From: Saturnia japonica
Lineage: Eukaryota > Arthropoda > Insecta > Lepidoptera > Saturniidae
NCBI GenBank assembly: GCA_033032175.1
Contig: CM065317.1
Coordinates: forward strand, 19,985,279-20,049,278
Reading direction: 5' to 3'
Length of the DNA: 64,000 bases
Below, piece by piece: positions 25,216-51,170 of the stretch. The notes below the pieces were generated by a model, which was not told the origin of the DNA, searched no databases, and saw only the letters and a list, made by a program, of their open reading frames with translations. The position numbers were made by a program, and so were the translations under genes. How positions within the stretch are numbered: the stretch's first letter is position 1; each line of letters starts with the position of its first letter.

Positions 25216-25396
25216 TCCCGCCCACCAAAATGCCTATGGTATTTTCTGGTCAAATGATCAATTGGGGAACAAGGATCGGTAGATACGATAAGAACGGTAA
25301 AAACACTACGATATATTAGAATAGATATACGATAAAATATATATAAAATATAGATACATATAAATACATAGATATAATGAATTTAAGCGATTTAAG

Positions 25397-28300: not shown

Positions 28301-30603
28301 CCATCGAATACGACGCGCAATCGTGTTGTCTTAGATTCAGGGCGTAGAACACAATGATGTGGTATATAATATTTTCCCCTGCCCATTTCGTTTACTGGGA
28401 CTAACGACATATGACCGCTCTCTATGTAATCAGACATAAAATCTGCGTATTGTGAATGTAGATCCGGATCTCGTGATAGTCTTCGTTCGATAGCGTGGAA
28501 TCTTCGCAATGCAACATCCCGAGAACCATCGAAGGTTGGTTCTGATCCAGTTTTAAAAGGAATACGTACCATATATCGGCCAGATTCATCGCGAGTATGA
28601 TCAGACTTAAACTTTTGCTCGCATAGTAATTCATCTGGAGTCAATATTGATGAACTTGGTACGGAATCAAGTTCCCAAAATCGTTGTACTAAAGCATTTA
28701 ACTCGTTATCGATATCTGGTAATGTATGTAACAAAGTACTAGACGATATGCATGTCTTGCCTAAAAGAATCCAACCAAAAATTGAATTAAACGCGGTAAG
28801 TTGGTTGGAACCGCCTTTAATATGTTGGTTAAGAATAAATTCTGCGAATACGTCCGCAGCGAATAGTAAATCGATAGGTCCTGGAATATCAAAACCAGGA
28901 TCCGCCAAGGATAACGATTTAATATGTGACCATCCCGATGTGTTCAACTGCGCGATTGGTTGATCGCCACATATTTTAGAAATAACGTGCATATTTAATT
29001 TGTACAACACTCGACCGTCAGTTCCGACAGAACACACGACGTCACCGATGATCGGTGCTGCCGCATCTCCGAGCCCACTAACGTTCGCGATAGTCTTAAC
29101 AGATTTTAAGTTTAATTTTTGTATCGCCGATTCAGTAATAAAACTACTTTGACTGCCGGTGTCAAATAAAGCACGGAAAGATTGCATGTTGCCTGAAGCA
29201 TCCAGAATTTGAACGATAGCTGTTGCTAACAGCACGGTAATGTTTGGTTGAGATCTTGACACCAAAGTTGACCCGATATGCTTTGGCTCGTTATTAGAAT
29301 TGTCACGATGGAGCAAAGTATGAAGTTTATGTTTGCATTTGCGACACGAGAAAATCGAATGGCAATTCTTCAGTTGATGTGAAGATTTCAAGCAGTTAAA
29401 ACACCAGTTCTTTTGTTTAGCTATAAGCTGGCGATCGTCAAGCGATTTGTTTAAAAATTCTTGACATGATGTAATTGCATGTGCCTGATTGCAATAAGGA
29501 CACTTACCCGAAAATGAGTCAATTTTATTATCAACCACACTCTTTTTATCATATTTTTCAGGTGCAACAACAAGCGCTTGTGAAGTAGCAACATGCTTGT
29601 ATTGATTTGACACATGCCTATGCTTAGGTGGATATTTTATGACTTCATTCGATTCGGAAAAATGTGTGTCACGCAACATAGCTTCGCATTTAGATCGAAG
29701 AAAACTCTTAAGTTGATCATAAGACGGTAATTCGATATCTGAATATTTTTCCTCAAAACTACGGCGGATATTTTTGTCAAGTTTCGATAAAATGTGATAA
29801 ACTAAAACAAAATCCCAATTCGCAACCGGTAAGTTGATCGTTTTTAGAATACTCAAATTCTCTTCGAAAAGATCAAGCGACTTCTGGAACTCGCGCGCGT
29901 TGATGTATTTAAAATCAATATTTAAAATATCTCTCCAACAGCTAAACGCTAAGGTACGTTTACACTTGTAGCGAGCAATAAGTGAATTATACGCATCATG
30001 ATAATGTTCGTGAGTCATAGGGTACGCTTTTACTACTAACAACGCATCGCCGCTAAGAGAAGATATCAAATAATGAAACTTTTCCGTATCTGAAAGTGAA
30101 GTAGAATTATGAATTAAAGCGTTAAAAGTATCAAAATATTCGGGCCATTGTTTGATGTTCCCGCCGAAATTAGGCAGAACGATTTTCGGCAAACGAATAT
30201 TTTGTGATGAAGTCCTATGCGATTGATTAGATTCACTTTTAGTTAATTTCCGGTGAATCGATAATATTCGATAATACATATCATCAAAATGTTCTTGGAT
30301 TTCATTTTCGTTGTCATCCGAGTTATCTATTAGGTCTAAAATAGTAACATGCGCGTTCTCGAAACTCGACGTAATTTCTTTAACATCCTGATGATATGAT
30401 AAAAATAAGTCGCTGTGTGAAGGGTCCTCTATAGCTAAAGTACCGATTTCCAAAGCCTTTGCTAACCGTTTAATAGCAATTGTACGTTTTCTGCGTAAAG
30501 ATGCTAAGTCTTGAATTGTATGAGATTGCTCAAAAGAGGTCAATTTAGCCTTTGTTAAACTTGGCATTTTACGCGTAGTATGTTTTCTAAGGATCGGCAT
30601 CAT
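25397..30603 (-). pseudogene. BEL-2 Gag-Pol polyprotein, one nonsense codon and one frameshift
   Basis: 30603-27958 (881 codons) holds in order: Gag with a DUF1759-like block (residues 137-215, LPKIVLPNFGG to LIARYK), Cys/His knuckles (369-430), an aspartic protease site FDTGSQSSFIT (480-490), and RT up to about residue 881. A TAG at 27958-27960 stops it just before VYIDDVI, the catalytic Y-x-D-D box. The same frame then continues through the rest of RT and RNase H to 26704. At about 26710 the frame changes by one base, and 26707-25397 encodes the integrase: an H-H-C-C zinc region, Asp in VGVDFGG, Asp in HADCGTNF, Glu in FGGIWE, and a C-terminal DUF5641-like region. These proteins copy RNA to DNA and insert it. 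This copy cannot do so alone. Confidence 0.93.
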
Positions 30604-31093
30604 GAACTATTTTAGGTTCGATAATTGAAAAAAAAAAATTCAAATTAATTTGACACGTGAAGAAAAAAGAATTCAATTTTAAAAACGTAAACAAATGAAT
30701 TTTCGAATTTATATTTCGATTTGCAACAAATGACAAAAATATGTAAGAAAATTTGAAAGGTCACAATATATGATAAAATATATGTATTTATATATATAAT
30801 ACTATTTAGTCGATGAAATTATTATAAGCCGATGAAATTAATTAAGTACCGATGAAATATAGTGATTACTTAATTAGATCTTACAATAATTTCCGATGAC
30901 ACACAAATGATATATATGTGAAATATCTGTTCGATGGTAACTATTGTACGATTTAGATATATATGAATAGGTATTTAGGTATGATTACTCGCAATATTAA
31001 GTAAGAACTACGACGATGACCAGAAATACCACAAACATATACCACGATTGAGAATAATATCGGTGGAAATCCCGGGTTTCGGCACCAAAAAGA

Positions 31094-31422
31094 TGTAGCA
31101 TCCGCACCGAACCGAAATAGCGGTGGCTTAGCTACACTGGGTAATTTCGATACGGTAAAAAACGATGTTCAAAAACTCGATAGCGCTGGAACAAATACAA
31201 TGCTCTCACGTACCTTGGACTGCGCCAACACTTGCGATGATATCCACCGACACGATTCAGGTCACCATACGAATTCAGATTCGGTTTTGCACAGCGATTC
31301 TTGTTGCGTGCCTCGCGATAAGAGCTCCAAAATTCGACGAGTACATAAAGCATGACAGCTGTCAGCTGCGTTTGCCAGTCCCATCGAGTATTGATAATAA
31401 GGTTTTATATGAGTACGAAACA
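31094..31422 (-). repeat. BEL-2 LTR (5' LTR in element orientation)
   Basis: 329 bp, partner of 24887-25215. The primer-binding site adjoins its inner edge at about 31070-31093 on the - strand. Confidence 0.95.
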
Positions 31423-31427
31423 ACCTA

Positions 31428-31720
31428 TCTACCTTAACGCACTTTAAACGAACGCAAGTGCTGCCCTCTATCAAAAAACGTAGTACGTTTGTATCTCGCA
31501 ACTTGCAAACCGCTCTGAGCGCAACTGCGTTGAGAAAAATTATAAAATCGGTTATAATCTCCTGAAAACCGTAATAAATCCTAGTGCCAGTGTAGACTAG
31601 TGCCTTGTTAAGAAGATCAGCAACCTAAGCCACAAACTCAGCCGGGGTACCCCGAAGAAAAGGATCTCCGTGTGCGGGTGAGTGGTGGATACATGTCCTC
31701 ATAACTACATTTCCTACACA
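31428..31720 (+). repeat. BEL-1 5' LTR, second part
   Basis: Continuation of the LTR begun at 24800-24886 after the BEL-2 insertion. It ends ttcctacaca, as the 3' LTR does. Confidence 0.95.
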
Positions 31721-32371
31721 TTTGTTTGGTCCTTCGTTCCAAATTATCAAAAATTAACAAGGACTTTAGGGTTTGTGCTGGCATATTAGGTCTTTATAAG
31801 TACAATTTTATATAATTTTTCAATATCAAATTGGCATAAACTACCTTTTATTAAGAAACTTTCCGTTTTACCTAGGCTTAGCGTATTGGTTTTTCGACAA
31901 TACCACTGCGTACAGTTTTTTCGAACTGTACTAATTCATTTCCTAATGAATTAATAGGTAAAAATAGTGAATTTATATCAGTTGCATGTTTATTTCATCT
32001 TGTGGGTAAACAAATTTTTTTTTTTTTTCTTACGCCACTTAGCGCTCGCGTCGACGTTCGCTTCTACAATACAAGTTTTATCTATTATCTTATGCACGCG
32101 CTCCAGAGCTAGCTACGCCAATCAATTTAACCATTATCTTAACATAATATAACTTCATATTGCAGGTTGTAATTAGCTGTCTACGTATTACGTACTAGAC
32201 ACACTTATAATTTTGCATGGTCAATATCGCCGTATTATCATACTACAAATAACACTAACTAATCATATTGAAATATCTTATAGTATCGTATTGCTGTTAG
32301 TGTGCTTCGTGCTTAACTACTAACTATCTCTCTACTTCACTATACAAACATATTTATTATTTACATTCATT
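31721..32371 (+). other. BEL-1 5' untranslated leader
   Basis: Non-coding leader between the LTR and the first Gag ATG. It contains the candidate primer-binding site at 31727 and several short T-rich tracts. Confidence 0.6.
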
Positions 32372-33628
32372 ATGGAACTTCAACAACTAACATTTGAACG
32401 CGAAGTTTTTATGAATAGCATCCAACGTATGGCTGATTGTTCTGCCGATGAAGCAGAATTCCGTGCTCGTGTTAAGGAATTAAACAATGTTAAGAAGCAG
32501 TTTTTCCTTATTCAAGGTAAAATTGAAAAACTTTTAGCTAAAACCGGCGAGTTTAAACCTGAAGAACAATTAGAAATACGTAATCAATTCGACAACTTAT
32601 ATTATAAAGTTCAAATTATAGCGGATAACATAAAAATTCTACGTAGACAAAGTTTGGCCAGCGCACAGCCTACCACTTGTTCTCACGGTCATTCTAAAAT
32701 TCAGCTACCGACACTTGCCTTACCGACTTTTCACGGTGGTATAACAGAATGGAATGCATTTTACGATTTGTTTTCATCATTAGTACATAACAACGAACAA
32801 TTATCAAATGTTGAACGTTTCCATTATTTGCTTTTGTCTTTGCGAGGTGAACCTTACAATTTAATAAAGTCACTTCCCATAACTGGCGATAACTACAGTA
32901 ACGCTTTGCAAGTGTTACTGAATCGTTATCAGAATGATCGAATTATAGCAACCAAACACTTGGACAAAATTCTTGATGTCGAACCGGTCAATGATAAAAA
33001 TGTTGAACAAAGTTTGCGTAACATTTTAAATGTTTATAACGAAAACTTAACCGCGTTGATATCTTTCGACTTACCGGTCACCCAATGGAGTTTCATTCTG
33101 TTGAATATTTTGTTACGTAAAATTACGCCGAATATTCGAAAACGCTTCGAATTATCGCTGAAGTCGCCATGTGAGATCCCACCTGTGAGTGACCTTATCG
33201 AGTTTCTAGACAAAGAGTTGTCGGCGTCCGAGGTGATGTCCTCCGTCGCGTCACTCAGCCCCAGTGCGGGTGCAGGCGCGGGTGGCGAGGGAGCAGTAGG
33301 CCGCCGCATGCCTAACTCGTTGTCGCGGCAAGCCGTCGCTTCACGCGCAGCGATGGCGCGCTCGCAGTCGGACCCACAGCGCGCCGCTGCACGAACACAA
33401 GCGCGGGATTTGTCTTCTGCACATACCACGCGTTTAATGAACGTTCATGCTGCGACTGCCATTGATTCCGGGCGTAACATTAAATGTAATTATTGTAAAG
33501 ATAATACACATCCTTTAAACAAATGCGACAAGTTTAATAAATTAACTTTATCTGAAAAGAAATCCTTTATCGAACATAATAAAATTTGCAAAAATTGCTT
33601 ATTCTCTGGCCACAATAATCAATGATTG
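32372..33628 (+). pseudogene. BEL-1 Gag
   Basis: 417 codons from an ATG at 32372. The N-terminal third is helical and charged. LPTLALPTFHGG to QVLLNRYQND (about residues 110-192) is the DUF1759-type BEL Gag domain. An Ala/Arg/Ser-rich low-complexity stretch (about 295-350) precedes the first Cys knuckle, CNYCKDNTHPLNKCDKF. The frame stops at 33623-33625 (TGA) in the second knuckle after KNCLFSGHNNQ. The next frame, from about 33626, continues with DCKSRHNCRVCSQRHH, so a one-base change separates Gag from Pol. It could be a mutation or sequence error. I see no slippery heptamer that would argue for programmed shifting. Confidence 0.9.
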
Positions 33629-36600
33629 TAAGTCGCGACACAACTGTCGTGTGTGTTCCCAGCGTCATCATACTTCTATACACGAAGATATGATTTCAAA
33701 TATTACTTTAACAAGCGAATGTAACTTCTCTTCCCCTGAGCTGACCTCAGTAGCGGAACTTTCCTCTTCGCCCACACCGGTGTGTGGTGTTTCTGGCCAC
33801 AGGAATAACTGTGTGGTTCTACTTACCACAGCATTGGTCAACATGCGTTCTATGGATGCGGGTCCCTGCACACCCCGTCTTGTGCGCGCTCTAGTGGACC
33901 AAGGCTCTCAAGCCACTCTCATTACAGAGTCGTGCGTCCAACGTCTTGGTTTACCACGTTATCGTGCCAGGACTAGCATGACTGTGACTGGAATAGGCGA
34001 TCAAAATGAGCAGCCACGTGGATATGTTTTGTGTGAAGTTACGCCTCACAACAAATCAGAACCTAAATTATTTATCGAAGCTCTTATCTTGCCCAAGATA
34101 ACAAGCTATTTACCAAGCATTCCGAGCACTTTCGAGCATATAAGTCATCTTCAAAATCTACCCCTAGCCGTCCCGGAATTACGTTCCGCGCGTCCCGTAG
34201 AACTTCTACTAGGATCAGATTATACTGACAGTATATTGTTGCATGATATTATTAAGGGCCCACAGGGTACACCCGTGGCCATTAATAGTATTTTTGGTTA
34301 CCTACTTAACGGTAAACTAGCTCATTCATTACCAGCACAAGTCTACATGAATGTTAGTACATATCAGCTTGATATGCAACTACAAAAGTTTTGGGAACTT
34401 GAATCAGTATCTGATGTCAAGCCTGTCACAAAAGAAGAAGCTCTTTGTGAATCAATCTTCGTCAATACTCATAAGCGAGGTGACAATGGAAAATACATTG
34501 TCTCCCTCCCATTTCAGGAACACGTACCTCTTCTCGGCGAATCACGTCAAATAGCACTTTATCGCTTGCACAAGCTTGAACAAAGGTTCTCTCGCGACCC
34601 TGCCTGTGTCTGCAAGAGTACGAAAGCTTGGGACATATGGAACCTGTCAGTGAGGTTACGCATGCTGACAGGTTTCCCTACTATATACCTCACCACTGTG
34701 TGGTGAAAAAATCTTCTGCGACTACTAAAGTCCGAGTAGTCTTTGATGCTTCCTGCAAGACTACTAACGGTCGTTCACTGAATGATAACTTACTAATTGG
34801 TCAAAAACTGCACCAAGACATAGATGCCGTTCTTTTAAAATTCCGACTACACAAGATAGTTTTTACAGCTGATATCAAAATGATGTATCGTTTTATCGAA
34901 ATACGACCTGAAGACCGGAATTTCCAACGAATTCTGTGGAGATATTCTCCTAACGATCCTGTACAGGAGTACCGACTTTGTACGGTAACTTTCAGTGTTG
35001 CTGCAGTCCCTTTCTTAGCACTTCGTACGCCTCGTCAGTTGGCAATGGACGAATCCGCGTCTTATCCAATGGCTTCGCATGTGCTGCTGAATGAGGTGTT
35101 CGTAGATGACATCGTGTCAGGGGCTGAAAGTCTTGAAGACGCTCTTGTGATGCAACGTGAGCTCACTGCCGCTTGCAAGACAGGAACGTTCGAACTCCGT
35201 AAATGGACTAGCAATTGCCTTGACTTCTTGTCAGCCATTAGCAGTAACAATTCGAATCCAGATGACGCTCTGATTCTTTCAGCACTCGACACTGATACTT
35301 CTTCGATCAAGGTTCTAGGTCTCAAATGGAATCCAAAATTAGACTCGTTTTCTTATCAGGTGGAGTCTCATCCCCAGAAATGCACGAAACGTATAAATGC
35401 TTTCAGAGTTTTCAAAAATTTACGACCCTTTAGGATTCCTTAGCCCTATTATATTATTTGGTAAGCATTTAATTCAACTTCTATGGATTTCAGGCACAAG
35501 TTGGGATGAAGCTCCTCCTCAAGGTGTTTGTGATCTCTGGTCAACGTTCATATCTGAACTTCCTTTACTTCAATTTATCTCTTTGCCACGTCACGTGCTT
35601 CCTAATCACAATAACGAGATACAAATACATGGTTTCTCGGATGCTTCCGAAAAGGCATATGCTGCTTGTGTCTACCTACGTGTCATTGACGCTCAAGACA
35701 CGGCTCATGTTTATCTTCTTCTCGCTAAAACAAAGGTTGCACCTTTGAAACGAATAACGCTTCCACGCTTAGAGTTATGTGCCGCCTTTCTTTTATCAAA
35801 ACTAATTAATAAAATACTAGATATCTACACTAACTTTCTATCCATCGAAAATGTGTATGCTTGGAGTGACTCCGCGGTCACACTTGCATGGCTACGCTCA
35901 TTGTCGCATGAATGGCGTACTTTTGTGTCTAACCGTGTCACAGAGACCACGAGCCGCGTGCCCGTCGCACACTGGCGTCATGTCCGCTCAGAGCATAATC
36001 CTGCGAATCCAGCATCCAGAGGTGTGCTACCATCCAACTTAGACCATGAGCTTTGGTTTAATGGGCCTACCTGGCTTAAGCAGGTCCAATCTGATTGGCC
36101 TATTTCCAATGTTGACTTACAAACAAATGAAGAACGACGAAAATACGTTTTTATATCCAAACAACTAACTCCTGACTTACAATTTCTAGAACGATTTTCG
36201 TCATTACCGAAATTACTACGCGTTGTTTCCATAATCTTTCGATTTTATTATAGATGTCGTAAGGTAAAATCTTATTCGTCTTCTTGCATCACCGTCCCTG
36301 AAACAAAATTCGCTTTAAATCGAGTTATCAGTCTCGTGCAGCAAAATCAGTTCGCTGACGACATTGTCCGTTTGAAAGATAATGATGTCTGTACGAACAA
36401 ACTCCAAAAGTTGAAGCCCTTTCTTGATGAAGCCGGACTTCTCAGGGTCGGCGGTAGGATACAGCGTGCTCAAATTTCTTACGATGCAAAGCATCAGATC
36501 ATTTTACCTAAAAAACATTTCTTCACGACTTTACTTATAGATTATTTTCATAAATTACATTTGCAAGTAGGTCCACAGACATTGCAATTTCTTTTATCTC

Positions 36601-37661
36601 AAAACTACTGGATCTTATCTGCCCGCGATGCAGTCCAAATGCGCACGCGCCGTTGCGTTCGTTGTTTTCGCACTCGTCCATCTGCTCCGCAGCCACACAT
36701 GGCTCCACTTCCCGCTGCAAGAGTGCGAGCTCTCAGGCCATTCCTACATGTTGGCGTAGATTTCGCGGGACATTTCTTTCTGAAGTCAAGAAAATATCGT
36801 AACGCGATAAAATACAAATCTTATGTATGCGTCTTTGTGTGCATGTCAACGAAGGCAGTGCATTTGGAGTTGGTACCAGAATTATCGAAAGAAGCATTTC
36901 TTAATGCTTTACGCCGTTTTATTTCCCGACGCGGACTTTGCACTGACGTTTATTCGGATTGCGGTCGAAATTTTGTCGGCTGCGATCGGTACTTGATGGA
37001 TTTGCAAACCTTTTTACAAAATGACACAACTCAAGCTCATATAAATGAAAAATTAACTTCTTTATCGATAACTTGGCATTTTAACCCACCTTATGCAAGT
37101 CATTTCGGTGGCATATTCGAGGCTGCTGTCAAAAGTATGAAATCTCATCTTTACCGGGTGATAGGGCAACTTACCTTGAATCACGACGAATTCAATACAC
37201 TTCTTTGTCAAATAGAAGCTATACTTAACTCTAGGCCCCTTTGCGTACAGAGCAATGATACCAGTGATCTATTACCTCTTACACCAGGACATTTTCTAGT
37301 TGGGGAACCATTGGTTTCCTTACCTGAAGTCGACTTATCAACTGACAATCCTAGTCGCCTCGTTCGATGGCAAATCATTCAACAGGCCGTACAACATTTT
37401 TGGAAACGCTGGAGTGTTGAATATCTACATCAACTTCAACAAAGAAATAAATGGTTCCACGATAATACGAGCACACCCCTCGCTGAGGGTACTGTAGTTG
37501 TGCTAATTGACAACAACCTCCCACCGCTGCAGTGGCACCTGGCTCGTGTGCATAAGCTTCATCCGGGTGCCGACGGGGTTGTTCGTGTTGTAACCGTACG
37601 CATGGGTAACACCCTTACCAAAAGGCCTGTAGTAAAGGTCTGTCCTTTACCTATTGACTAG
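33629..37661 (+). pseudogene. BEL-1 Pol (protease, RT, RNase H, integrase), two more frameshifts
   Basis: 33629-34706 carries the protease region (RALVDQGSQATLITES, with DQG where retropepsins usually have DTG or DSG) and the start of RT. Near 34605-34615 the frame changes. 34628-35443 carries PYYIPHHCVVKKSS, VFDASCKTTNGRSLND and FVDDIVSGAESLED (catalytic D-D). Near 35395 it changes again. 35397-37661 (754 codons) carries the RT/RNase H end and an integrase with VGVDFAGHF, YSDCGRNFVG and HFGGIFEAAVKSMKSH, then a DUF5641-like C-terminus ending before the 3' LTR. All catalytic residues I can check are present. Only the frames are broken. Confidence 0.92.
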
Positions 37662-37748
37662 GTACTATTATAACATATCGTAGTCTTATGTTAAGTTAGT
37701 TTATATCGTTTTCTTTAAAATAAGATAGTCATTTTAAGGTCGGCGGCA

Positions 37749-38128
37749 TGTTCCGTATTTTCATTGGGTATATGTCAGCACAAATCTTTTTCTATATTAG
37801 TTTTATTAGTAAAATGGAATGTATCTGTCCACCTATCTACCTTAACGCACTTTAAACGAACGCAAGTGCTGCCCTCTATCAAAAAACGTAGTACGTTTGT
37901 ATCTCGCAACTTGCAAACCGCTCTGAGCGCAACTGCGTTCAGAAAAATTATAGAATCGGTTATAATCTCCTGAAAACCGTAATAAATCCTAGTGCCAGTG
38001 TAGACTAGTGCCTTGTTAAGAAGATCAGCAACCTAAGCCACAAACTCAGCCAGGGTACCCCGAAGAAAAGGATCTCCGTGTGCGGGTGAGTGGTGGATAC
38101 ATGTCCTCATAACTACATTTCCTACACA
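37749..38128 (+). repeat. BEL-1 3' LTR, followed by target duplication AATAC
   Basis: 380 bp TGTTCC...CTACACA. The duplication AATAC follows at 38129-38133. The purine-rich tract aaggtcggcggca is immediately upstream. Confidence 0.95.
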
Positions 38129-38133
38129 AATAC

Positions 38134-39732
38134 TAAAAGTATTAAAGAGACGATAGAGCGGAATAAAGGCTCCAAAGTGTTCACAAGGAATGCATCTATT
38201 GGCACGAGCCAGTTGACGAAGCTGAAAATGGATGATGGCAGCGTAGCGTCCACCAAGTCAGAGGTATTAAGGAAGATCGAAAGGTTCTATGGGCAGTTAT
38301 ATACCTCGTCAACTAAGCCTGTTACCAGCCCGGCTAAAGATCCAAGAGCCGGGCTGACCCGACACTATACCGAAGATATCCCCGACATCACCCTGTACGA
38401 GATTAGGATGGCCCTTAAGCAGCTTAAGAACAACAAGGCGCCGGGTGATGACGGAATTACATCAGAGCTTCTTAAAGCGGGTGGAACACCGGTACTTAAG
38501 GTCCTGCAGAAGCTCTTTAATTCCGTTATACTCGAGGGTAAAACGCCGGAAACGTGGGGCGGCAGCGTGGTGGTCCTGTTCTTCAAGAAAGGTGATAATA
38601 CCTTATTCAAGAACTATCGGCCCATCTCGTTGCTGAGTCATGTTTATAAGCTGTTTTTGAGGGTCATTACGAATCATCTCGAGCACAAGTTCCACATCTA
38701 TACGCTGCGGCAGATTATACAGAAGACTGAGGAGTATAATATGCCTTTATGCTTGGCGTTCGTGGACTACGAAAAAGCCTTTGATTCGGTCGAAACCTGG
38801 GCAGTGTTGCGGTCTCTCCAGCGGTGCCGTATTGACAATCGATATATCGAAGTGTTGAAGTGCTTGTACAACAACGCCACCATGTCGGTCCGAGTACAGG
38901 AGCAGTGTACGAAGACAATTCCTTTGAAAAGAGGCGTTAGACAGGGAGACTTAATATCTCCGAAACTGTTTACCGCCGCTCTAGAGGACGCCTTCAAGCT
39001 TCTGGAATGGCAAGGACTCGGCATCAATGTCAATGGCGAGTACATCACTCACATTCGATTTGCTGACGACATCGTAGTCATGGTAGAATCGCTGGAAGAT
39101 CTTGGCATAATGCTCGATGGCCTCGACAAAGTTTCTCAACAGGTGGGCCTTAAAATGAACATGGACAAGATGAAAATCATGTCGAATATCCATGTGGTGC
39201 CCACCCCAGTATCAGTTGGGAACTCTTGTCTAGAAGTTGTTGACTAATATGTCTACCTGGGACAAAGAGTCCAGATAGGTAGGTTCAACTTTGAAAAAGA
39301 GGTCATTCGACGAATCCAACTCGGCTGGGCAGCGTTCGGAAAACTGCGCGACGTCTTTTCGTCCAAAATACCTCAGTGACTCAAGACAAAAGTCTTTGAC
39401 CAGTGTGTGTTGCCAGTGATGACATACGGCACAGAGACATGGTCGCTCACTGTGGGCCTCATAAGAAAGCTCAAGGTCGCTCAGCGAGCTATGGAGAGGG
39501 CTATGCTTGGTGTTTCTCTTCGAGATCGAATCAGAAATTAGGAGATCCGTAGACAAACTAAGGTAACCGACATAGCCAAAAGGATTAGCAAGTTGAAGTG
39601 GAAGTGGGCGGGGCACATAGTTCGGAGAACTGATGGACGTTGGGGCAGAAATGTTCTCGAGTGGAGACCACGCACCGGAAAGCGCAGCGTAGGACGGCCC
39701 CCCACTAGATGGAAAGACGACATAATAAAGGT
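38134..39732 (+). mobile_element. RTE LINE, reverse transcriptase part (truncated at the inversion breakpoint)
   Basis: Continues the RTE interrupted at 24799. An open frame to 39245 holds KQLKNNKAPGDDGITSELLK, WGGSVVVLFFKKGDN, NYRPISLLSHVYK, LAFVDYEKAFDSVE, GVRQGDLISPKLF and HIRFADDIVVMVE (the catalytic ADD box). The C-terminal region (GQRVQIGRFNFEKE, then MERAMLGVSLRDR, WAGHIVRRTDGRWGRN) follows with stops at 39245-39247, 39377-39379 and about 39539. The sequence breaks at 39732 after cataataaaggt. The remaining RTE 3' end and its ATC tail are at 46129-46247 on the other strand. Confidence 0.92.
38523..39732 (+). repeat. Inverted duplication A, left copy
   Basis: 1,210 bp that is nearly identical to the reverse complement of 46248-47457. 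I noticed one substitution, tataagctg versus tattagctg, which makes a stop in the right copy. This is the RTE-side part of the inferred inversion breakpoint. Confidence 0.95.
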
Positions 39733-40145
39733 TCATCTGGTCGTTTTAATTTTCGTATACAAACCTCATAATATAGTAATTGATTTATTTTGAAAAAGAT
39801 TCTGGTTAATTTATAATATTTTATGATATTTGATTGAATTCGATTTACCGATACTGATTTATATATCATGTATAAAATTATTAAAGCGAATACATTCGAT
39901 CCCATCATCAGTTACGATAGAATGTAACTAAATTTTATACGATTAACAATTATCATTTTTTTACATTTACGTTTTTACATTTACGCTATTATAATTTTTG
40001 TAAGAAGTCATAATTAAGGTAAGTTAATAAAATAACGCAGTTAGAATATTTATTTTGAAACTCATTTTAAAGTTAACTTTTACGTAATTTGGAACAGTTT
40101 CGTTCTAAAGCAGCTGTCAAAAAGTGGTTAACCTGGTGGACAAGG
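39733..40145 (-). mobile_element. Partial MITE (cut by the inversion breakpoint)
   Basis: Matches 50220-50633 in reverse. Its inverted repeat end (ctgtcaaaaagtggttaacc, then tggtggacaagg) abuts the mariner at 40145/40146. The other end is missing on this side. Confidence 0.85.
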
Positions 40146-40856
40146 TATAATGAGCAATGCCCTTCCAGTCCCACCATACACACAGCATTACCTTTGTATT
40201 AATTAACCCAGGTTTAGCCACAGACAGTGAAGCCTGGCTGATTTTAGACCACGAAATTCTTCGTACGTGATTCACTTTTCATCGCTTGTTATCAATCTCT
40301 TCAAAATCGACTCGGTTTCATTACGTTTCAATAATGAATCGCAAATGAGTACACGGTCCATTAGGTTTCTTTCAGTGAGCTTGTGTGGCACCCAAATATC
40401 GAGCTTTTTGGTTTAGCCAGCTTTCTTCAAATGGGTTAAAACTGTTTTGTGGTCAATTTCCAGTTCTTCCGCTACATCGTAACTACTGATATGTCGACCT
40501 TGCTCCACTTTTTCAAAAATGGCTTCCGTTTAATTCGTAACAGGGCGACCAGAGCGAGGTGCTTCTTTAACATCAAAATTTCCGGACTGAAAGCGTTTTA
40601 ACAAACTTTGTGCTACTCTTACTGACACTGCATTAAAATTTCAAATTTCTTCGCTGCTTGAGATGCATTTTTGCTTTTTTTGTAATAATATTTTAAAATG
40701 TATTGCATTACAGAAAGAAAAACAAACGAAAAATAACGGCCAACAATTTTTTTATTTTTAATGTTACCAAAACCAGCCTGTACAAATAGTACAACCAAAC
40801 AAATTTTATAACTAGTTTATACCTACGTTATGCGAAAACACCTATTCCCCGACCTA
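40146..40856 (-). mobile_element. Mariner 5' part, interrupted by the MITE
   Basis: Reverse-strand mariner of the 7821 family. The inverted repeat ccccgaccta is at 40847-40856. The transposase N-terminus is degraded, and blocks equivalent to ATSDEKW and VCVWWDWKG are visible in broken frames. The 3' half is absent here because the MITE and then the inversion breakpoint follow. In the uninverted copy the 3' part resumes at 51171. Confidence 0.85.
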
Positions 40857-40872
40857 ATATATAACCCTAGAT

Positions 40873-41413
40873 TATACTATTCCCATTTTTTTTTTCTCGA
40901 TGACAGTTCTAATTTGATAGTTGTAGTGTTGTGACCAAATAAGTAATGATATCGATAACTCATCGAGTGACAGTGACGATTCATCAGATTTTGATTAAAA
41001 TAAATGAATAAAGATTACCTGTCGTTATAATTATTTCGTTTCATTGTCGAGTACCTACCTATACCTACTTATTTTACAACAGCTTCGAAAATTTTGAAGA
41101 AGTTGTCATTATCAATCAAGAATTGATATGTGTAACATCTTGTAATGAAATATAATATTAGTTATTAAAATTGTACAAAAGTATCCGGCAATAGTTAAGT
41201 TTCTTACATTTTGTAAAAATATTTCGGGTCTGTTATCATGTTACGTTTATCGATATAGCTCCATCCCTATCAGTTTCTCCGACTCTGGTATAACCTTGTA
41301 CGTGTGTAAACGTCATATTTTTATAAAATAATGCATACATAATGTAAAAAAGACGTTCGTTCAAGTTTTCACAGGAGCTGTCATCGAGAAAATAAAGAAG
41401 TGGAAATGGTATA
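40873..41413 (+). mobile_element. MITE derived from the DD82E transposon (internal deletion)
   Basis: The first about 85 bp match the 5' end of the 10345-12415 element up to atatcgat. The sequence then jumps straight to ctcatcgagtgacagtgacg and follows its last about 460 bp to the 3' inverted repeat. The deletion of about 1.5 kb removes essentially the whole transposase gene except its acidic tail. TA-flanked ends are preserved, so it could be mobilised in trans. Confidence 0.9.
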
Positions 41414-41465
41414 ATTATTTATTGGTCGTAGCTCTCGCTACAGCCTATGTTTATAACATTTATAA

Positions 41466-42060
41466 GAGATCACTAGCTGACCCGTGCAACTTCGTCTGTG
41501 TCACATAGAGAGAGGGGGTGGGACGTAGGCAAAATCAAATAACAATTGTCGTAGGTACCTACAATACAATTTATAGGTGCCGCCCGCCTGCCACATCATT
41601 CCGCTAAGATGCACGTGTGGTACTTGATTATTATTTTGCTGCCGAGTTATTTTTATTTTTGCAGCGCACGCAGTGGAAACTTTAACAAGGAATACATTTT
41701 CCCCATTTTTGCAAAAAATTTCATTGATGATTTTGCTCCTATTGGTGGTAGCGTGATCTTATAATAGCCTATAGCCTTCCTCGATAAATGGGCTATCCAA
41801 CAATAAAATAATTTTTCTATTTCAGTCTGTACATCCTGAGATTACCGCGTACAACCAAACAAAGAAACACTCTTCAGCTTTATAATGTTAGTATAGATTG
41901 GTTTGTATGAAATATTTTTCCTATTAATAGGGTAAAGTTTAGAAGTCCACAACACTATTTTGTTTACGCACAACGATATGAAGTTGGCGTATTCTAGAAC
42001 TATTGTTTGTAGGAAGCGCGGTATCTAGTTGTAGCAACGCGCAATCATTAATTTATGATT
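41466..42060 (+). repeat. Lepidopteran dispersed repeat
   Basis: Starts cactagctgacccgtgcaac and ends near gtatctagttgtagc. The 3' part is shared with 13920-14175 and the whole is mirrored at 48300-48900. Non-coding, family not assigned. Confidence 0.6.
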
Positions 42061-42739
42061 ATTTTAGTTATTTATGAGGCAAAACCTCTTACTTCTTCGC
42101 TCCTATTATTATACTTTATTTTCTGCTTAATTTTTTCTTCCGCTTCTTATTCCTCGTGTTGTGCGGGTGGGGGCAGGGGAGAGGGGGAGGGAACTATTTA
42201 CACGTTTCCACTATCCACTGATATTGTTCTCAGTTATGAATTTGTGACACTTCTAATATTCATATAATTTGACAAATTATATTTTTATCCGTAGTTGGTT
42301 AAAGTTGGTGGTGGAAGCAACGCGAAAACGGAAATGGAACGGAAGCGGAAACGAGTCAAGATGGAGCTGTGGCTCCGGAGTTCGGCGCGTGTAGTTCTGT
42401 TATGGAAAAGGGGAGTGGAAATGAGGATGTACAACTCTTCAAACCCCCAATGATTAGACAATAGAACACGCTCAGCGAGGCAATGTGCGCAACTGAAGCG
42501 GCTCGATGTATTTGGTAATGTTTGCATAATGAACAATACGAGTGCCACCTGCGAATATCAGAAGAGGAGTGCTGTAAGTCGATACCTAGTAGTTACGGTA
42601 TCTAGTCCAATCTCCAGTACTAATCTCATATTATAAATATTTATTTATAAAGTAAATACGGTGAACGTATTTTCCCGGGCATATTAAGTCTGTCACTAAT
42701 CCCTCAGCATAGAGTCTTCAGCTTATAATAATCCAGTGA
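42061..42739. other. Upstream flank of SP1, no gene
   Basis: Contains a G-rich tract (gtgggggcaggggagagggg) near 42166-42190. Otherwise nothing recognised. Confidence 0.5.
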
Positions 42740-42773
42740 GATAAGATAGAGGCCCAGCCCGAGGTTATATAAA
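42740..42773 (+). promoter_or_regulatory. SP1 core promoter: double GATA and TATA box
   Basis: GATAAGATAG at 42740-42749, then TATATAAA at 42766-42773, 50 bp before the SP1 ATG. The same pair at similar spacing precedes SP2 and SP3, on the opposite strand. GATA-family factors are known activators of insect midgut digestive genes. Binding here is inferred. Confidence 0.75.
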
Positions 42774-42823
42774 GTCGAAGGCGGAGGTCACCCGCAGTGT
42801 GCACAGCTGTGACCCGGTACGAC

Positions 42824-44291
42824 ATGTTGTTAGCTCTGTTGGTGTCGGCGGCGGCGATGGCGGTGGTGATGCCCGGGGGGGCGGAGGGGACGGAGCCGGT
42901 GCTGCTGGAGTACCACTCGCGCGTGGGAGTGGGGCTGGCGACGCGTATTGCGCACGCTGAGAGCGCGCTCGACTTCGATGGAAGTAGAATCATAGGCGGG
43001 TCCACTGCAGCGCTCGGCGCATATCCCTATTTGGTTACTCTCCTTTTTTATTTACATACATAAATACATACATACTACATAACATAACATATTTAAAGAG
43101 CCAAGCCCCTTCTGGTAACTAGAGTCATTTTCGTTATCGCTACTTCATTTCAAATGTGTTAATAAAACAATTTAAAATATCACCCCTCCTTGCCCTCATA
43201 AGTAATGTAATACTTATCATCGTATGCGTTTATCTGACAATATGAGATATTGCGACCGCGTCACGGCAACACTGAACGTACTACTGGGGGATATGGTTCC
43301 AGGGCGGACTGGTGATTACGCTGACGTCAGGAGGCACGTCCGTGTGCGGCTCCACGCTGCTGAGCAACACGCGCGCGGTCACGGCGGCGCACTGCTGGTG
43401 GGACGGACGCAACCAGGCGAGGCAGTTCACCGTGGTGCTCGGCTCCGTCACACTGTTCTCGGGCGGAGTCAGGGTCAGCACTAGCAACGTGCAGATGCAC
43501 GGCAATTACAACACGGCCAACCTCAACAACGATATCGCTGTCATCGTCATGGGCTGGGTCACATACACAAGTCAGTGATAGTACTTACCTGACAAGAGAC
43601 ACACGCGTCTTCGCTCTCACTACAAATACCGTATTCGACTGTTACAGATGTGATTCGAGCCATCAACTTACCGACCGGCACGCTACAAAACAACAACTTC
43701 GCCGGTGCGTGGGTCCAGGCCGTCGGCTTCGGAAGAACTGGCGACAGTAAGATACTGTTTACTTTTCCATACACCTGAGCAGCTCCTATTCTTTGGCTTT
43801 GGTACAATCTGACTATGTACTAGTTTACAGTGTAAAGCACTAAGTTGTTTATCAGTAACCGAGCAGTCGTAGGTGAACGCAGCTCGGAGCGACAGACGGT
43901 TCAACTGCTATCTCTGGTTTCAGATACTCCGATCTCGAGTAACCAAGTCCTGAGGCACGTGAACCTGCAAGTGATCACAAACGCGGTTTGCCAGCAGACG
44001 TTCGGCGGCGTCATCATCGCGTCTACGTTGTGCACGGCGGGCGGCGCCGGGAGCACGTGCAGCGGGGACTCCGGCGGGCCACTGTCCATATCGAGCGGCG
44101 GACAGCGCGTGCTGGTGAGTCAGTAGGCTCCGGCTTCACGTGTGCTCCTGAGTGACTGTGTGGTGATGTGGCTTGGCTTGGCTCAGGTGGGAGTGACGTC
44201 CTTCGTGTCGGCGCGCGGCTGCGAGCTGCGGTTACCGGCTGGCTTTGCACGCGTCACCTCCTTCCTGGCGTGGATACAAGCGAGACTGTGA
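42824..44291 (+). CDS. SP1: secreted chymotrypsin-like serine protease (five exons)
   Basis: Exons: 42824-43033, 43303-43570, 43648-43746, 43924-44114, 44187-44291; 290 aa. The signal peptide is [19 protein letters not shown]. The propeptide is cut at FDGSR|IIGG (residues 55/56). Triad: His in VTAAHCW, Asp in NNDIAVI, Ser in CSGDSGGP. Residue 189 is Ser and 226 is Ala by alignment, so chymotrypsin-like specificity is expected. Three disulfide pairs are present. Intron phases 0,1,1,0 match SP2 and SP3. The first donor is GTTACT, weaker than GTGCGT/GTGAGT in the paralogues, so splicing may be poor. The gene is in opposite orientation to SP2/SP3, explained by the inferred inversion. Poly(A) signal AATAAA is at 44360-44365. 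Confidence 0.9.
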
Positions 44292-44359
44292 CGAATGGGA
44301 GAAGTCGGAGGAGTGGGGAGAAGCCCACCGCCATGTCGGTAATATTCAATTCATCATCA

Positions 44360-44365
44360 AATAAA
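44360..44365 (+). terminator. SP1 poly(A) signal
   Basis: AATAAA about 70 bp after the stop codon. Confidence 0.75.
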
Positions 44366-46128
44366 TGTTTTGGAAACGTATCACAAATCTATTATTTCTA
44401 AACCTTGGTGACAACGCAGTCTCGTCCGCTTTCTCCATTGACAAGCTCTTCTTGCCTTCATTAAATCGAAATATAATAAAGCGCATAACGGTACGAAGAG
44501 CACGTGCACACGTGTGAGGGAGACGAGGGAGGTGACTGACCGCGGCAGCCGAAGCCGGGAGTCGCAAGGACAGTATATGCAGGCCTACTGTCTGCACCAT
44601 TACCAATCCAATGGATTTTTGATGTGAAATTTCCCTGAGGTACGATGGAGAAAAATTTTACAATGAAGCAAATTGTGTTAATATTCTAAAATATATAAGC
44701 AACCAATGATATTTTATAAGTAGATACGGCATTGACGCTCTTTAGGTACATGGCATCGTAAATGAGGGGCAATTTTCCATATTTCACTTTCGACTTGAGG
44801 CGTCTTGACGACTTGAGAATTAGCGGTGGGTGGTTATGAGATATACCAACGTTATCATTCAATTATGAAGATATATCGGTTAAGGCCATTAGTAATTACT
44901 AATATTAGTAGATATTTCGATGACGAGGGATCATTCATAATCGAAGCACGATTAGTAATTACTAATGCTAGGTTACTAATTGTAGAGAAATTCGAATAAG
45001 ACTTGTCAGTTATGGTTTAATGGTTTATTTAAATGAATTATTACTATGGTTACACGTTATGATAGATAGCGAGCGGTAGTACTGAGTCGCTCATGGTTGC
45101 GAGCCAACTGACTCGTATGTACAATAACATAATATTATACCTAACGAGCGGTTCGGTTGTGTAATCCCGAACACTAATATTAGCAGTTACTAATTTGACC
45201 GGCCTTTTTTTAGCTAATTAGTGTATATGAAGAACTAATTTACGACTGCGTGACCATTTTATTTTATTTTTTGCTTCCCACTCTACATTTTTAATACGTA
45301 CATATCTCAATTCAGTTATAATTCATAATCGCCCACTCCTGAGTACTTCAGGGGCTCGATTATAAATGATCACTCATCATCAAAATAACTCAATTATGTA
45401 AATCATTCATGATCGAATATCTCGATTACGTAAATCATTAATAATCGCCCACTTCCAGCTAGAAAAAACTTGTATTTTGTGCAAGGATGAAAAGAATAGA
45501 TAGCAACGGCTGCGGTACACCAATACCACAGAACAAGTTTAAGCAAGTAATTTTTTCCTCTTTTGACAAGAAAGTTAACGCCTTACGCTGTGATTTCTTA
45601 TCCCTTCGGTTACAACATGCTGATAATAAAAATAATGCCGTTTTAAAGTGCTTTTAATGAGAATATGATTTAAATGAGTTAGTGGAGGGCACAAATATGT
45701 TCTAAAGAACCATCATATCGATTTTAAACGATAAAAAACTTTATTCATACTTTAAAAAAAAACTGATACGCGACTCAAGTATCAAACCTAATCATTAAAA
45801 AAAAATGATGTTATTTTATTAAGGAAATTGTAAGGAATAAACGTTGCGAGGAAACCCTGTGTGTAAAGTTAAAAGAAAATGCTGAATTTTATTATTCCAT
45901 TTATAGATTTTTTAAATTACTGCCATTAATCAAAAACTCGACAATCTAATAATCAACAAGCGAAGGCAGGAAGCAAACTGGCAGGTTATGAAAAAAAACG
46001 AAGTTTTCAAAGAGTTCTTTTTTCAAAAACTTTTCACGCGTATATTGGTTCTGTTTTACAAATTGGCGCCGTATTTTTTAAAATAAATACACTCACGAAT
46101 GTAGTTTAATTTTTAATTTGAAATAAAA
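44366..46128. other. Inverted-segment spacer, no gene
   Basis: AT-rich DNA between SP1 and the RTE 3' end. A palindromic candidate MITE lies at 44885-45205. A repeated cactcatcatcaaaata / tcattcatgatcgaata phrase lies near 45370-45450. Nothing coding. Confidence 0.5.
44885..45205. mobile_element. Candidate MITE with attagtaattactaata inverted repeats
   Basis: ggccattagtaattactaat at the left is mirrored by an imperfect cactaatattagcagttact...gaccggcc at the right, and ttagtaattactaatgctag occurs internally. The ends read ggcc/ggcc. There is no coding capacity. The target duplication is unclear, hence the low confidence. Confidence 0.35.
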
Positions 46129-46247
46129 TATCATCATCATCATCATCATCATTTCAGCCGCAGGACGTCCACTGCTGAACATAGGCCTCCCCCATAGATC
46201 TCCAGAGCGACCGATCTTGTGCGGCCTGCACCCAACGGCTCCCAGCG
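46129..46247 (-). mobile_element. Missing RTE 3' end with (ATC)n tail
   Basis: The (ATC)n run at 46130-46152 and the following about 95 bp encode, on the - strand, AGSRWVQAAQDRSLWRSMGE and YVQQWTSCG, the end of the RTE ORF. This part is absent from the left copy, which breaks at 39732, and continues seamlessly into the right copy of A. Confidence 0.93.
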
Positions 46248-47457
46248 ACCTTTATTATGTCGTCTTTCCATCTAGTGGGGGGCCGTCCTACGCTGCGCTT
46301 TCCGGTGCGTGGTCTCCACTCGAGAACATTTCTGCCCCAACGTCCATCAGTTCTCCGAACTATGTGCCCCGCCCACTTCCACTTCAACTTGCTAATCCTT
46401 TTGGCTATGTCGGTTACCTTAGTTTGTCTACGGATCTCCTAATTTCTGATTCGATCTCGAAGAGAAACACCAAGCATAGCCCTCTCCATAGCTCGCTGAG
46501 CGACCTTGAGCTTTCTTATGAGGCCCACAGTGAGCGACCATGTCTCTGTGCCGTATGTCATCACTGGCAACACACACTGGTCAAAGACTTTTGTCTTGAG
46601 TCACTGAGGTATTTTGGACGAAAAGACGTCGCGCAGTTTTCCGAACGCTGCCCAGCCGAGTTGGATTCGTCGAATGACCTCTTTTTCAAAGTTGAACCTA
46701 CCTATCTGGACTCTTTGTCCCAGGTAGACATATTAGTCAACAACTTCTAGACAAGAGTTCCCAACTGATACTGGGGTGGGCACCACATGGATATTCGACA
46801 TGATTTTCATCTTGTCCATGTTCATTTTAAGGCCCACCTGTTGAGAAACTTTGTCGAGGCCATCGAGCATTATGCCAAGATCTTCCAGCGATTCTACCAT
46901 GACTACGATGTCGTCAGCAAATCGAATGTGAGTGATGTACTCGCCATTGACATTGATGCCGAGTCCTTGCCATTCCAGAAGCTTGAAGGCGTCCTCTAGA
47001 GCGGCGGTAAACAGTTTCGGAGATATTAAGTCTCCCTGTCTAACGCCTCTTTTCAAAGGAATTGTCTTCGTACACTGCTCCTGTACTCGGACCGACATGG
47101 TGGCGTTGTTGTACAAGCACTTCAACACTTCGATATATCGATTGTCAATACGGCACCGCTGGAGAGACCGCAACACTGCCCAGGTTTCGACCGAATCAAA
47201 GGCTTTTTCGTAGTCCACGAACGCCAAGCATAAAGGCATATTATACTCCTCAGTCTTCTGTATAATCTGCCGCAGCGTATAGATGTGGAACTTGTGCTCG
47301 AGATGATTCGTAATGACCCTCAAAAACAGCTAATAAACATGACTCAGCAACGAGATGGGCCGATAGTTCTTGAATAAGGTATTATCACCTTTCTTGAAGA
47401 ACAGGACCACCACGCTGCCGCCCCACGTTTCCGGCGTTTTACCCTCGAGTATAACGG
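46248..47457 (-). repeat. Inverted duplication A, right copy (RTE reverse transcriptase fragment)
   Basis: Reverse complement of 38523-39732. It encodes the same RT blocks (for example LAFVDYEKAFDSVE and HIRFADDIVVM) from 47323 to 46733, but has a TAG at 47330-47332 where the left copy has a Lys codon. It joins SP1 exon 1 sequence at 47457 with one base of shared sequence (C). Confidence 0.95.
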
Positions 47458-47538
47458 CAGCACCGGCTCCGTCCCCTCCGCCCCCCCGGGCATCACCACC
47501 GCCATCGCCGCCGCCGACACCAACAGAGCTAACAACAT
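47457..47538 (-). pseudogene. Decapitated SP1 exon 1 fused to RTE
   Basis: ATG at 47538, then the same signal peptide [19 protein letters not shown] as SP1, and 27 codons in all to ...EPVL. The sequence then passes into RTE DNA out of the RT frame and the combined frame ends at 47344. No activation site, triad or splice donor remains. An intact promoter lies upstream. Confidence 0.9.
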
Positions 47539-47588
47539 GTCGTACCGGGTCACAGCTGTGCACACTGCGGGTGACCTCCGCCTTCGAC

Positions 47589-47623
47589 TTTATATAACCT
47601 CGGGCTGGGCCTCTATCTTATCT
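47589..47623 (-). promoter_or_regulatory. Duplicated SP1 promoter (double GATA plus TATA)
   Basis: TATATAAA at 47589-47596 and the doubled GATA at 47614-47623, as in SP1. It would drive transcription leftwards into the RTE fragment, antisense to the + strand SP1 unit. Confidence 0.75.
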
Positions 47624-48947
47624 CACTGGATTATTATAAGCTGAAGACTCTATGCTGAGGGATTAGTGACAGACTTAATATGCCCGGGAAAATACGTTCA
47701 CCGTATTTACTTTATAAATAAATATTTATAATATGAGATTAGTACTGGAGATTGGACTAGATACCGTAACTACTAGGTATCGACTTACAGCACTCCTCTT
47801 CTGATATTCGCAGGTGGCACTCGTATTGTTCATTATGCAAACATTACCAAATACATCGAGCCGCTTCAGTTGCGCACATTGCCTCGCTGAGCGTGTTCTA
47901 TTGTCTAATCATTGGGGGTTTGAAGAGTTGTACATCCTCATTTCCACTCCCCTTTTCCATAACAGAACTACACGCGCCGAACTCCGGAGCCACAGCTCCA
48001 TCTTGACTCGTTTCCGCTTCCGTTCCATTTCCGTTTTCGCGTTGCTTCCACCACCAACTTTAACCAACTACGGATAAAAATATAATTTGTCAAATTATAT
48101 GAATATTAGAAGTGTCACAAATTCATAACTGAGAACAATATCAGTAGATAGTGGAAACGTGTAAATAGTTCCCTCCCCCTCTCCCCTGCCCCCACCCGCA
48201 CAACACGAGGAATAAGAAGCGGAAGAAAAAATTAAGCAGAAAATAAAGTATAATAATAGGAGCGAAGAAGTAAGAGGTTTTGCCTCATAAATAACTAAAA
48301 TAATCATAGATTAATGATTGCGCGTTGCTACAACTAGATACCGCGCTTCCTACAAACAATAGTTCTAGAATACGCCAACTTCATATCGTTGTGCGTAAAC
48401 AAAATAGTGTTGTGGACTTCTAAACTTTACCCTATTAATAGGAAAAATATTTCATACAAACCAATCTATACTAACATTATAAAGCTGAAGAGTGTTTCTT
48501 TGTTTGGTTGTACGCGGTAATCTCAGGATGTACAGACTGAAATAGAAAAATTATTTTATTGTTGGATAGCCCATTTATCGAGGAAGGCTATAGGCTATTA
48601 TAAGATCACGCTACCACCAATAGGAGCAAAATCATCAATGAAATTTTTTGCAAAAATGGGGAAAATGTATTCCTTGTTAAAGTTTCCACTGCGTGCGCTG
48701 CAAAAATAAAAATAACTCGGCAGCAAAATAATAATCAAGTACCACACGTGCATCTTAGCGGAATGATGTGGCAGGCGGGCGGCACCTATAAATTGTATTG
48801 TAGGTACCTACGACAATTGTTATTTGATTTTGCCTACGTCCCACCCCCTCTCTCTATGTGACACAGACGAAGTTGCACGGGTCAGCTAGTGATCTCTTAT
48901 AAATGTTATAAACATAGGCTGTAGCGAGAGCTACGACCAATAAATAA

Positions 48948-49492
48948 TTATACCATTTCCACTTCTTTATTTTCTCGATGACAGCTCCTGTGAAAACTTG
49001 AACGAACGTCTTTTTTTACATTATGTATGCATTATTTTATAAAAATATGACGTTTACACACGTACAAGGTTATACCAGAGTCGGAGAAACTGATAGGGAT
49101 GGAGCTATATCGATAAACGTAACACGATAACAGACCCGAAATATTTTTACAAAATGTAAGAAACTTAACTATTGCCGGATACTTTTGTACAATTTTAATA
49201 ACTAATATTATATTTCATTACAAGATGTTACACATATCAATTCTTGATTGATAATGACAACTTCTTCAAAATTTTCGAAGCTGTTGTAAAATAAGTAGGT
49301 ATAGGTAGGTACTCGACAATGAAACGAAATAATTATTACGACAGGTAATCTTTATTCATTTATTTTAATCAAAATCTGATGAATCGTCACTGTCACTCGA
49401 TGAGTTATCGATATCATTACTTATTTGGTCACAACACTACAACTATCAAATTAGAACTGTCATCGAGAAAATAAAGAAATGGGAATAGTATA
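48948..49492 (-). mobile_element. DD82E-derived MITE, right copy
   Basis: Mirror of 40873-41413. It carries the same internal deletion, so it was present before the duplication. Confidence 0.88.
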
Positions 49493-49508
49493 ATCTAGGG
49501 TTATATAT

Positions 49509-50219
49509 TAGGTCGGGGAATAGGTGTTTTCGCATAACGTAGGTATAAACTAGTTATAAAATTTGTTTGGTTGTACTATTTGTACAGGCTGGTTTTGGTA
49601 ACATTAAAAATAAAAAAATTGTTGGCCGTTATTTTTCGTTTGTTTTTCTTTCTGTAATGCAATACATTTTAAAATATTATTACAAAAAAAGCAAAAATGC
49701 ATCTCAAGCAGCGAAGAAATTTGAAATTTTAATGCAGTGTCAGTAAGAGTAGCACAAAGTTTGTTAAAACGCTGTCAGTCCGGAAATTTTGATGTTAAAG
49801 AAGCACCTCGCTCTGGTCGCCCTGTTACGAATTAAACGGAAGCTTTTTTTGAAAAAGTGGAGCAAGGTCGACATATCAGTAGTTACGATGTAGCGGAAGA
49901 ACTGGAAATTGACCACAAAACAGTTTTAACCCATTTGAAGAAAGCTGGCTAAACCAAAAAGCTCGATATTTGGGTGCCACACAAGCTCACTGAAAGAAAC
50001 CTAATGGACCGTGTACTCATTTGCGATTCATTATTGAAACGTAATGAAACCGAGTCGATTTTGAAGAGATTGATAACAAGCGATGAAAAGTGAATCACGT
50101 ACGAAGAATTTCGTGGTCTAAAATCAGCCAGGCTTCACTGTCTGTGGCTAAACCTGGGTTAATTAATACAAAGGTAATGCTGTGTGTATGGTGGGACTGG
50201 AAGGGCATTGCTCATTATA
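49509..50219 (+). mobile_element. Mariner 5' part, right copy
   Basis: The inverted repeat taggtcggggaataggtgtt at the start and transposase remains (IQYILKYYYKKSKNAS-like, SGRPVTN-like) lead to the MITE insertion at 50219. The 3' part continues at 51171. Confidence 0.88.
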
Positions 50220-51170
50220 CCTTGTCCACCAGGTTAACCACTTTTTGACAGCTGCTTTAGAACGAAACTGTTCCAAATTACGTAAAAGTTAACTTTAAAA
50301 TGAGTTTCAAAATAAATATTCTAACTGCGTTATTTTATTAACTTACCTTAATTATGACTTCTTACAAAAATTATAATAGCGTAAATGTAAAAACGTAAAT
50401 GTAAAAAAATGATAATTGTTAATCGTATAAAATTTAGTTACATTCTATCGTAACTGATGATGGGATCGAATGTATTCGCTTTAATAATTTTATACATGAT
50501 ATATAAATCAGTATCGGTAAATCGAATTCAATCAAATATCATAAAATATTATAAATTAACCAGAATCTTTTTCAAAATAAATCAATTACTATATTATGAG
50601 GTTTGTATACGAAAATTAAAACGACCAGATGAATATTTATGCATATTTGTTTATTATTAGTCGTCTTCCGACATGGAACTTTCGTCTGAAGACACCCCGT
50701 CTTCACCTTAATTTATTGTGATTGATTCTTAAAAGTGGGAAAACACCATACAGAAAAGTGACTAGCACGTAAGTACGGATCTTTCGTTGCGACTGTTGCT
50801 GAGTGTTAACCACAGAACACCGAACCACACAGAACCGTCAGCAAACAAAATGGCGGCGGCAGCATTATGCTAGTATTGCCAGGACATTAATTTGCCTTCA
50901 TAAACAGGATGTTAATGTTTTAAAAAAAAAAAATTAAACTATCATAAAATATTATGCACAAAAACGGTGTAAAAATTAACCACATATGTAAAAATAAACT
51001 ATACACTTGAATAGGAATAGAAACGCACCATTTCCAATTCCACAATAAAAAAATCGATAATCGATACTAATTAAAGTATCATCGGATCAATAATGACATT
51101 GTCACGTTGTTGCAATCACTATTTCCATCTTTCAATAACTGTCAAAAAGTGGTTAACCTGGTGGAAAAGG
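50220..51170. mobile_element. MITE, 951 bp, 32-bp TIRs, TATA target duplication, nested in mariner
   Basis: The left end ccttgtccaccaggttaacc and right end ggttaacctggtggaaaagg are inverted repeats of about 32 bases with one mismatch. TATA flanks both sides (50216-50219 and 51171-51174). The mariner transposase frame resumes directly after it. No transposase is inside. A 4-bp TATA target and CCTTGTCCACC ends do not match a superfamily I can name with confidence. Confidence 0.85.

Follow-up and report, generated by a model that had tools for sequence, protein, structure and literature searches.

We analyzed a 64-kb stretch of the genome of the moth Saturnia japonica (contig CM065317.1, positions 19,985,279 to 20,049,278; assembly of 580 Mb in 402 contigs), hereafter the window, in which all coordinates are given. 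It contains a serine protease gene, SP1, next to a non-LTR retrotransposon (LTR, long terminal repeat) that we take to be of the RTE type. The assembled sequence of this locus is very probably explained by one rearrangement spanning 12.1 kb, in which a 7.7-kb block was inverted and 1.2 kb from one end of the block and 3.2 kb from the other were duplicated in inverse orientation. There is good support for an inversion with inverse duplication at both breakpoints, and we infer that it arose in a single event; the direction of change, from the uninverted to the inverted arrangement, appears well supported too.

Layout of the inverted duplication

Self-BLAST of the window matches 38523–39732 (segment A) to the reverse complement (rc) of 46248–47457 over 1210 bp at 99.9% identity, and approximately 39732–42905 (segment B) to the reverse complement of 47457–50633 over ~3.18 kb at 99.6% identity (Table 1). 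Each segment is present twice, in opposite orientations, and the order along the window is A-B ... rcA-rcB, the recurrence that a preliminary description of this DNA had claimed. In base-level alignment, a single substitution separates the copies of A, and 8 substitutions and two indels (of 2 bases and of 1 base) separate those of B; the overall arm divergence is ~0.21% (9/4384). The limits of B are taken from this alignment, which upholds those of the preliminary description over the 39725/50640 to which BLAST had extended the segment. Chance is hardly a credible origin for a match of 4.4 kb at ~99.8% identity.

A spurious inverted duplication that the assembly created by joining two haplotypes or chimeric molecules would find some support in the arm divergence, which at ~0.2% is also within the range of two alleles, and in the location of the locus near a contig end (the 20.1-Mb contig extends 65 kb past the window). 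Two exact junctions with complementary native continuations would, however, need two independent chimeras in register, and a 12.1-kb structure should be within the reach of a single long read; we consider such an artefact distinctly unlikely.

Table 1. Positions of the rearranged segments, their junctions and the associated features in the window
Feature	Coordinates	Strand	Remarks
Segment A, left copy: RTE-type non-LTR retrotransposon interior	38523..39732	+	99.9% identity to rc(46248-47457); RVT_1
Segment B, left copy: repeats, ~3.09 kb 5' of SP1 start codon, SP1 codons 1-27	39732..42905	+	
Segment M: single-copy middle of the inverted block; remainder of SP1, RTE 3' end ~46129-46247	42906..46247	-	
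Segment rcA, right copy of A	46248..47457	-	reverse transcriptase frame interrupted by a stop at a codon that encodes lysine in the left copy
Segment rcB, right copy of B: SP1 upstream region and codons 1-27, duplicated	47457..50633	-	
Novel junction 1, RTE joined to B	39732		one-base overlap (T); boundary alignments
Novel junction 2, codon 27 of SP1 followed by RTE sequence	47457		one-base overlap (C); boundary alignments
SP1, five-exon collagenase-like S1 serine protease, apparently intact	42824..44291	+	exons by eye, three-frame translation
G-rich stretch, G-quadruplex (G4)-prone, ending 2 bases short of the SP1-side breakpoint	42863..42903	+	G4Hunter maximum 2.04
Hairpin, 3' arm containing the X-A boundary	38451..38526	+	nested 9-bp inverted repeats

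Native boundaries and the ancestral order

Boundary alignments place the two novel junctions at 39732 and 47457, as the preliminary description had done, with its overlaps of T and C; each junction shares 1 base and contains zero inserted bases. Continuity across the boundaries was assessed with 120 RTE homologues listed of 805, a boundary being counted as spanned when a single tblastn alignment reached at least 30 bases to either side. Among these listed matches, 104/120 span the outer boundary at 38523 and 55/120 span that at 46248, whereas 0/120 span the inner junction at 39732, where the furthest alignment stops at 39757, and 0/120 span that at 47457, where the furthest stops at 47452. This pattern indicates that one RTE was split and that A was duplicated. 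The homologues that do not span the outer boundaries (16 at 38523 and 65 at 46248) are presumed to be incomplete proteins. Another copy of the RTE, at 9356–9779 of the window, crosses 46248 gap-free at 96.2% identity; in 31 loci (257819 bases), the only RTE copies have lengths of 266 and 83 bases, with identities of 69% and 82%, respectively. At 42905, six lepidopteran homologues, hand-chosen from the 120 listed for SP1, align with exon 1 of the gene before and after residue 27, and E24, P25, Y30 and H31 are invariant in this alignment. Judged by homology, native continuity is demonstrated at three of the four outer boundaries (38523, 42905 and 46248), in agreement with the earlier claim of smooth continuations into the 5' part of the RTE, its 3' end and the rest of SP1.

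The native flanks bear on two other origins. The orders A-B and B-A are circular permutations of one another, as would result from a reopened DNA circle, and one arm could accordingly be the original and the other an insertion of a permuted copy by way of a circle or transposition. Such an insertion predicts foreign flanks on one arm; both flanks of the left arm and the 46248 flank of the right arm are native, and the candidate, to which we give next to no credence, was rejected with three of the four outer flanks native. Ectopic recombination between inverted repeats could likewise be entertained at a locus where repeats are frequent and an RTE lies at the breakpoints. It requires pre-existing homologous inverted repeats at both breakpoints, whereas the joined sites share one base per junction, which makes this origin extremely improbable.

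With M' denoting rc(42906–46247), B' denoting rcB, and X and Y denoting the outer flanks, the ancestral order would have been X-A-M'-B'-Y, in which A was part of the RTE and B' comprised the upstream region and exon 1 of an SP1 gene on the - strand. One event would then have converted X-A-M'-B'-Y into X-A-rc(A M' B')-B'-Y. The direction of this change is drawn from the three native outer boundaries, the breaks at both inner ones and the - strand location of three neighboring proteases. Since the order of events is not readable from sequence alone, two or more successive events, such as an inverted duplication followed by a deletion, may be imagined. Two junctions suffice for one event, however, and a multistep path would require that precisely the original middle be deleted afterward; moreover, the divergences of A (1/1210) and B (8/3174) are not significantly different (Fisher p = 0.46), although this test is weak. 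We regard a succession of events as very unlikely.

Undoing the inversion had been expected to make the RTE continuous. This expectation holds across the breakpoint; elsewhere the RTE is still split by two nested BEL/Pao elements, the second of which (24800–38128, target-site duplication AATAC) lies within the RTE and carries the first (24887–31422, target-site duplication ACCTA) in its 5' LTR. The RTE shows endonuclease and reverse transcriptase (RT) domains, with RVT_1 in the open reading frame at 38090–39247. Many of its 120 listed RT homologues are unnamed, and most of the named ones are presumably lepidopteran; a few bear the names Pseudomonas, Klebsiella and Apostichopus. Homologue P0121, a public protein named as a Pseudomonas aeruginosa reverse transcriptase, is 75% identical to this RTE and is probably insect DNA contaminating a bacterial record. 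A search of the window against Rfam gave 0 matches at the gathering score.

The SP1 gene and the age of the inversion

Three-frame translation, read by eye, finds the catalytic residues H, D and S of SP1 all present. The hand-spliced protein matches the trypsin family (PF00089, E = 1.2e-35) and resembles lepidopteran "collagenase-like" proteases (120 homologues listed of 652); every named entry among those listed is, as we take it from general knowledge of the names, lepidopteran. These features identify SP1 as an S1 trypsin-like, collagenase-like serine protease. Breakpoint 42905 falls just past codon 27, inside exon 1, where a plain inversion would have beheaded the gene. SP1 appears to have been cut after this codon, yet the duplication seems to have left one complete gene, now on the + strand, with ~3.09 kb of upstream sequence retained in the left copy. 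In the right copy, the SP1 upstream region and 27 codons are followed by RTE sequence entered out of the RT frame, and the reading frame, which starts from 47538, ends at 64 residues. An SP1-RTE fusion protein at junction 2 was rejected on account of this frame difference and early stop.

Three neighboring proteases, identified by active-site motif search, are all on the - strand, two of them in the window and one in the adjoining locus L009, which is what a flip of SP1 would predict. The earlier claim that undoing the inversion returns SP1 to the strand of its cluster neighbors agrees with this arrangement. In the 200 kb to the left, the protease motif search found two fragments with GDSGG alone, which are not protease-like by eye. 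The neighbor in L009, which with SP1 and the two others makes the fourth protease of the cluster, lies just outside the window, on the - strand, at approximately 2229–3562 of L009 (66229–67562 in window-extended coordinates).

Substitutions between the arms were polarized with repeat copies as the outgroup, which resolved 3/9 sites: two changes, at 40591 and 41026, are assigned to the right arm and one, at 41238, to the left. Changes spread over both arms are as expected of aged duplicates. At site 38648, lysine is present in the left copy and in P0121, and the right copy carries a nonsense change that interrupts the RT frame at window position 47332. An apparent clustering of the B substitutions in 40520–42216 (p ~0.03 with n set at nine, the actual number being eight) was too weak and was left unused. 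The LTR divergence of the BEL/Pao elements, 5/709, is higher than the 9/4384 of the arms (Fisher p = 0.035, or 0.023 with shorter LTR limits), and the inversion is therefore probably younger than both insertions. With an insect mutation rate of 2.9e-9 per site and generation, the arm divergence corresponds to ~0.16–0.67 million generations, with gene conversion and ancestral allele differences ignored.

Mechanism and comparison with known inversions

The preliminary description had interpreted the locus as a single inversion with inversely duplicated breakpoints that was formed from staggered breaks. The former part is well supported; the latter is not established, as breaks on sister chromatids, nicks confined to one chromatid and a pair of template switches all leave the same sequence and fit equally. 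Double-strand breaks that hit two sister chromatids at different positions and were repaired by end joining are a serious candidate with a probability appreciably below even, and nicks on one chromatid with fill-in of overhangs of 1.2 and 3.2 kb are unlikely. Both staggering models, opposite-strand nicks on one chromatid and breaks at different sister-chromatid sites, are described in PMC7584159 as inseparable by the duplication pattern, with the sister-chromatid model having been preferred owing to the unwinding length needed. The paper also discusses replication-based repair as an alternative, offers a template-switch scenario for the Drosophila inversion O7 and notes that up to 3 kb of single-stranded DNA can build up at stalled forks (PMC7584159); the duplicates at the present locus measure 1.2 and 3.2 kb.

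Two template switches at a stalled fork may well have produced the present locus, with a probability just short of even. After X-A had been copied, synthesis would switch strands at the B'/Y boundary, run back through A and then skip forward to B'. Stalling-prone sequence, a G4-prone stretch and a hairpin, occurs at 2/4 ancestral breakpoints (Table 1). The window has 10 G4Hunter clusters of at least 1.5, including that at 42863–42903, and two of the ten are right-arm copies. Ranked by DNA fold energy, the hairpin at 38523 falls in the lowest 0.9% of 15980 80-base windows; the proportion of window positions at least as fold-prone is 3.7% for 38523, 2.8% for 42905, 5.2% for 46248, 42% for 39732 and 47% for 50633. 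The small scale of the event, the G4-prone stretch and the hairpin lead us to lean slightly toward fork stalling with template switching. A more elaborate scenario, which we hold to be rather unlikely, would have the fork stall at the G4-prone protease exon and the retrotransposon hairpin and switch twice, generating at a single stroke both a micro-inversion that preserves the gene and an additional copy of the SP1 promoter and signal peptide; the inverted repeats of 1.2 and 3.2 kb could then keep flipping the interior, and the orientation of SP1 would be polymorphic today.

Several observations weigh against the account given here. The differences between the arms are also compatible with two alleles. 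Of the sites that were not polarized, 40889 polarizes both ways, 40520 and 40521 lie in a gap, and 38648, 42053 and 42216 are without a DNA outgroup. The fourth outer boundary, 50633, past which the preliminary description would have a MITE continue, has no other copy spanning it in the window or in the 31 loci, where several partial repeats of B occur and none crosses this position, and G4Hunter and the fold scan find no G4 or hairpin motif at it. The association of the breakpoints with motifs of non-B DNA is post hoc, involves four sites and is without a control for GC content. Finally, a target-site duplication linking the RTE ends was not found: the best local match between 23250–23520 and the 3' flank was equalled by 151/300 shuffles, and the exact matches in 19000–24900, none longer than 12 bases, either are rich in AT or lie well away from the start of the RTE.

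In terms of known rearrangements, the locus resembles those attributed to microhomology-mediated break-induced replication (MMBIR) and fork stalling and template switching (FoSTeS), in that two template switches give the same product. Junctions of that class often have microhomology of a few bases and sometimes templated insertions, whereas the homology here is 1 base per junction with no inserted bases, the comparison being with class values that we take to be typical.

By segment order and orientation, the locus would belong to a known type of inversion with paired inverted breakpoint duplications, referred to as the staggered-break type or dupINVdup. Among the papers listed in a literature search, no title or opening of an abstract described a lepidopteran inversion of this kind, although one may nonetheless have been published. 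The locus provides a lepidopteran gene-cluster case, at base resolution, of an inversion that breaks inside a coding exon without gene loss.

The Drosophila precedent invoked in the preliminary description is borne out by PMC7584159, PMC5080602 and PMC3527211. Inverted duplications at the breakpoints, as seen here, characterize the staggered-break inversions of Drosophila, among them the O3+4 complex of D. subobscura and In(3R)P of D. melanogaster. These duplications are found only in the inverted arrangement (PMC5080602, PMC7584159), and in D. melanogaster the breakpoint duplications may keep an intact gene copy (PMC3527211). The O7 inversion, at 9.936 Mb, is described as not being a typical staggered-break inversion (PMC7584159); the present block is 7.7 kb and lepidopteran. 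The human dupINVdup class, described in PMC5338099 as inversion with duplication on either side, shares with this locus the duplication of both inversion sides; the human example is a 5.1-Mb inversion detected with long-insert libraries (PMC5338099), whereas the junctions here are defined at the base level and on the kilobase scale. The signature of large Drosophila inversions also occurs at a scale of 12 kb, short enough to be covered by single long reads and to allow genome-wide surveys of its mechanism and frequency.

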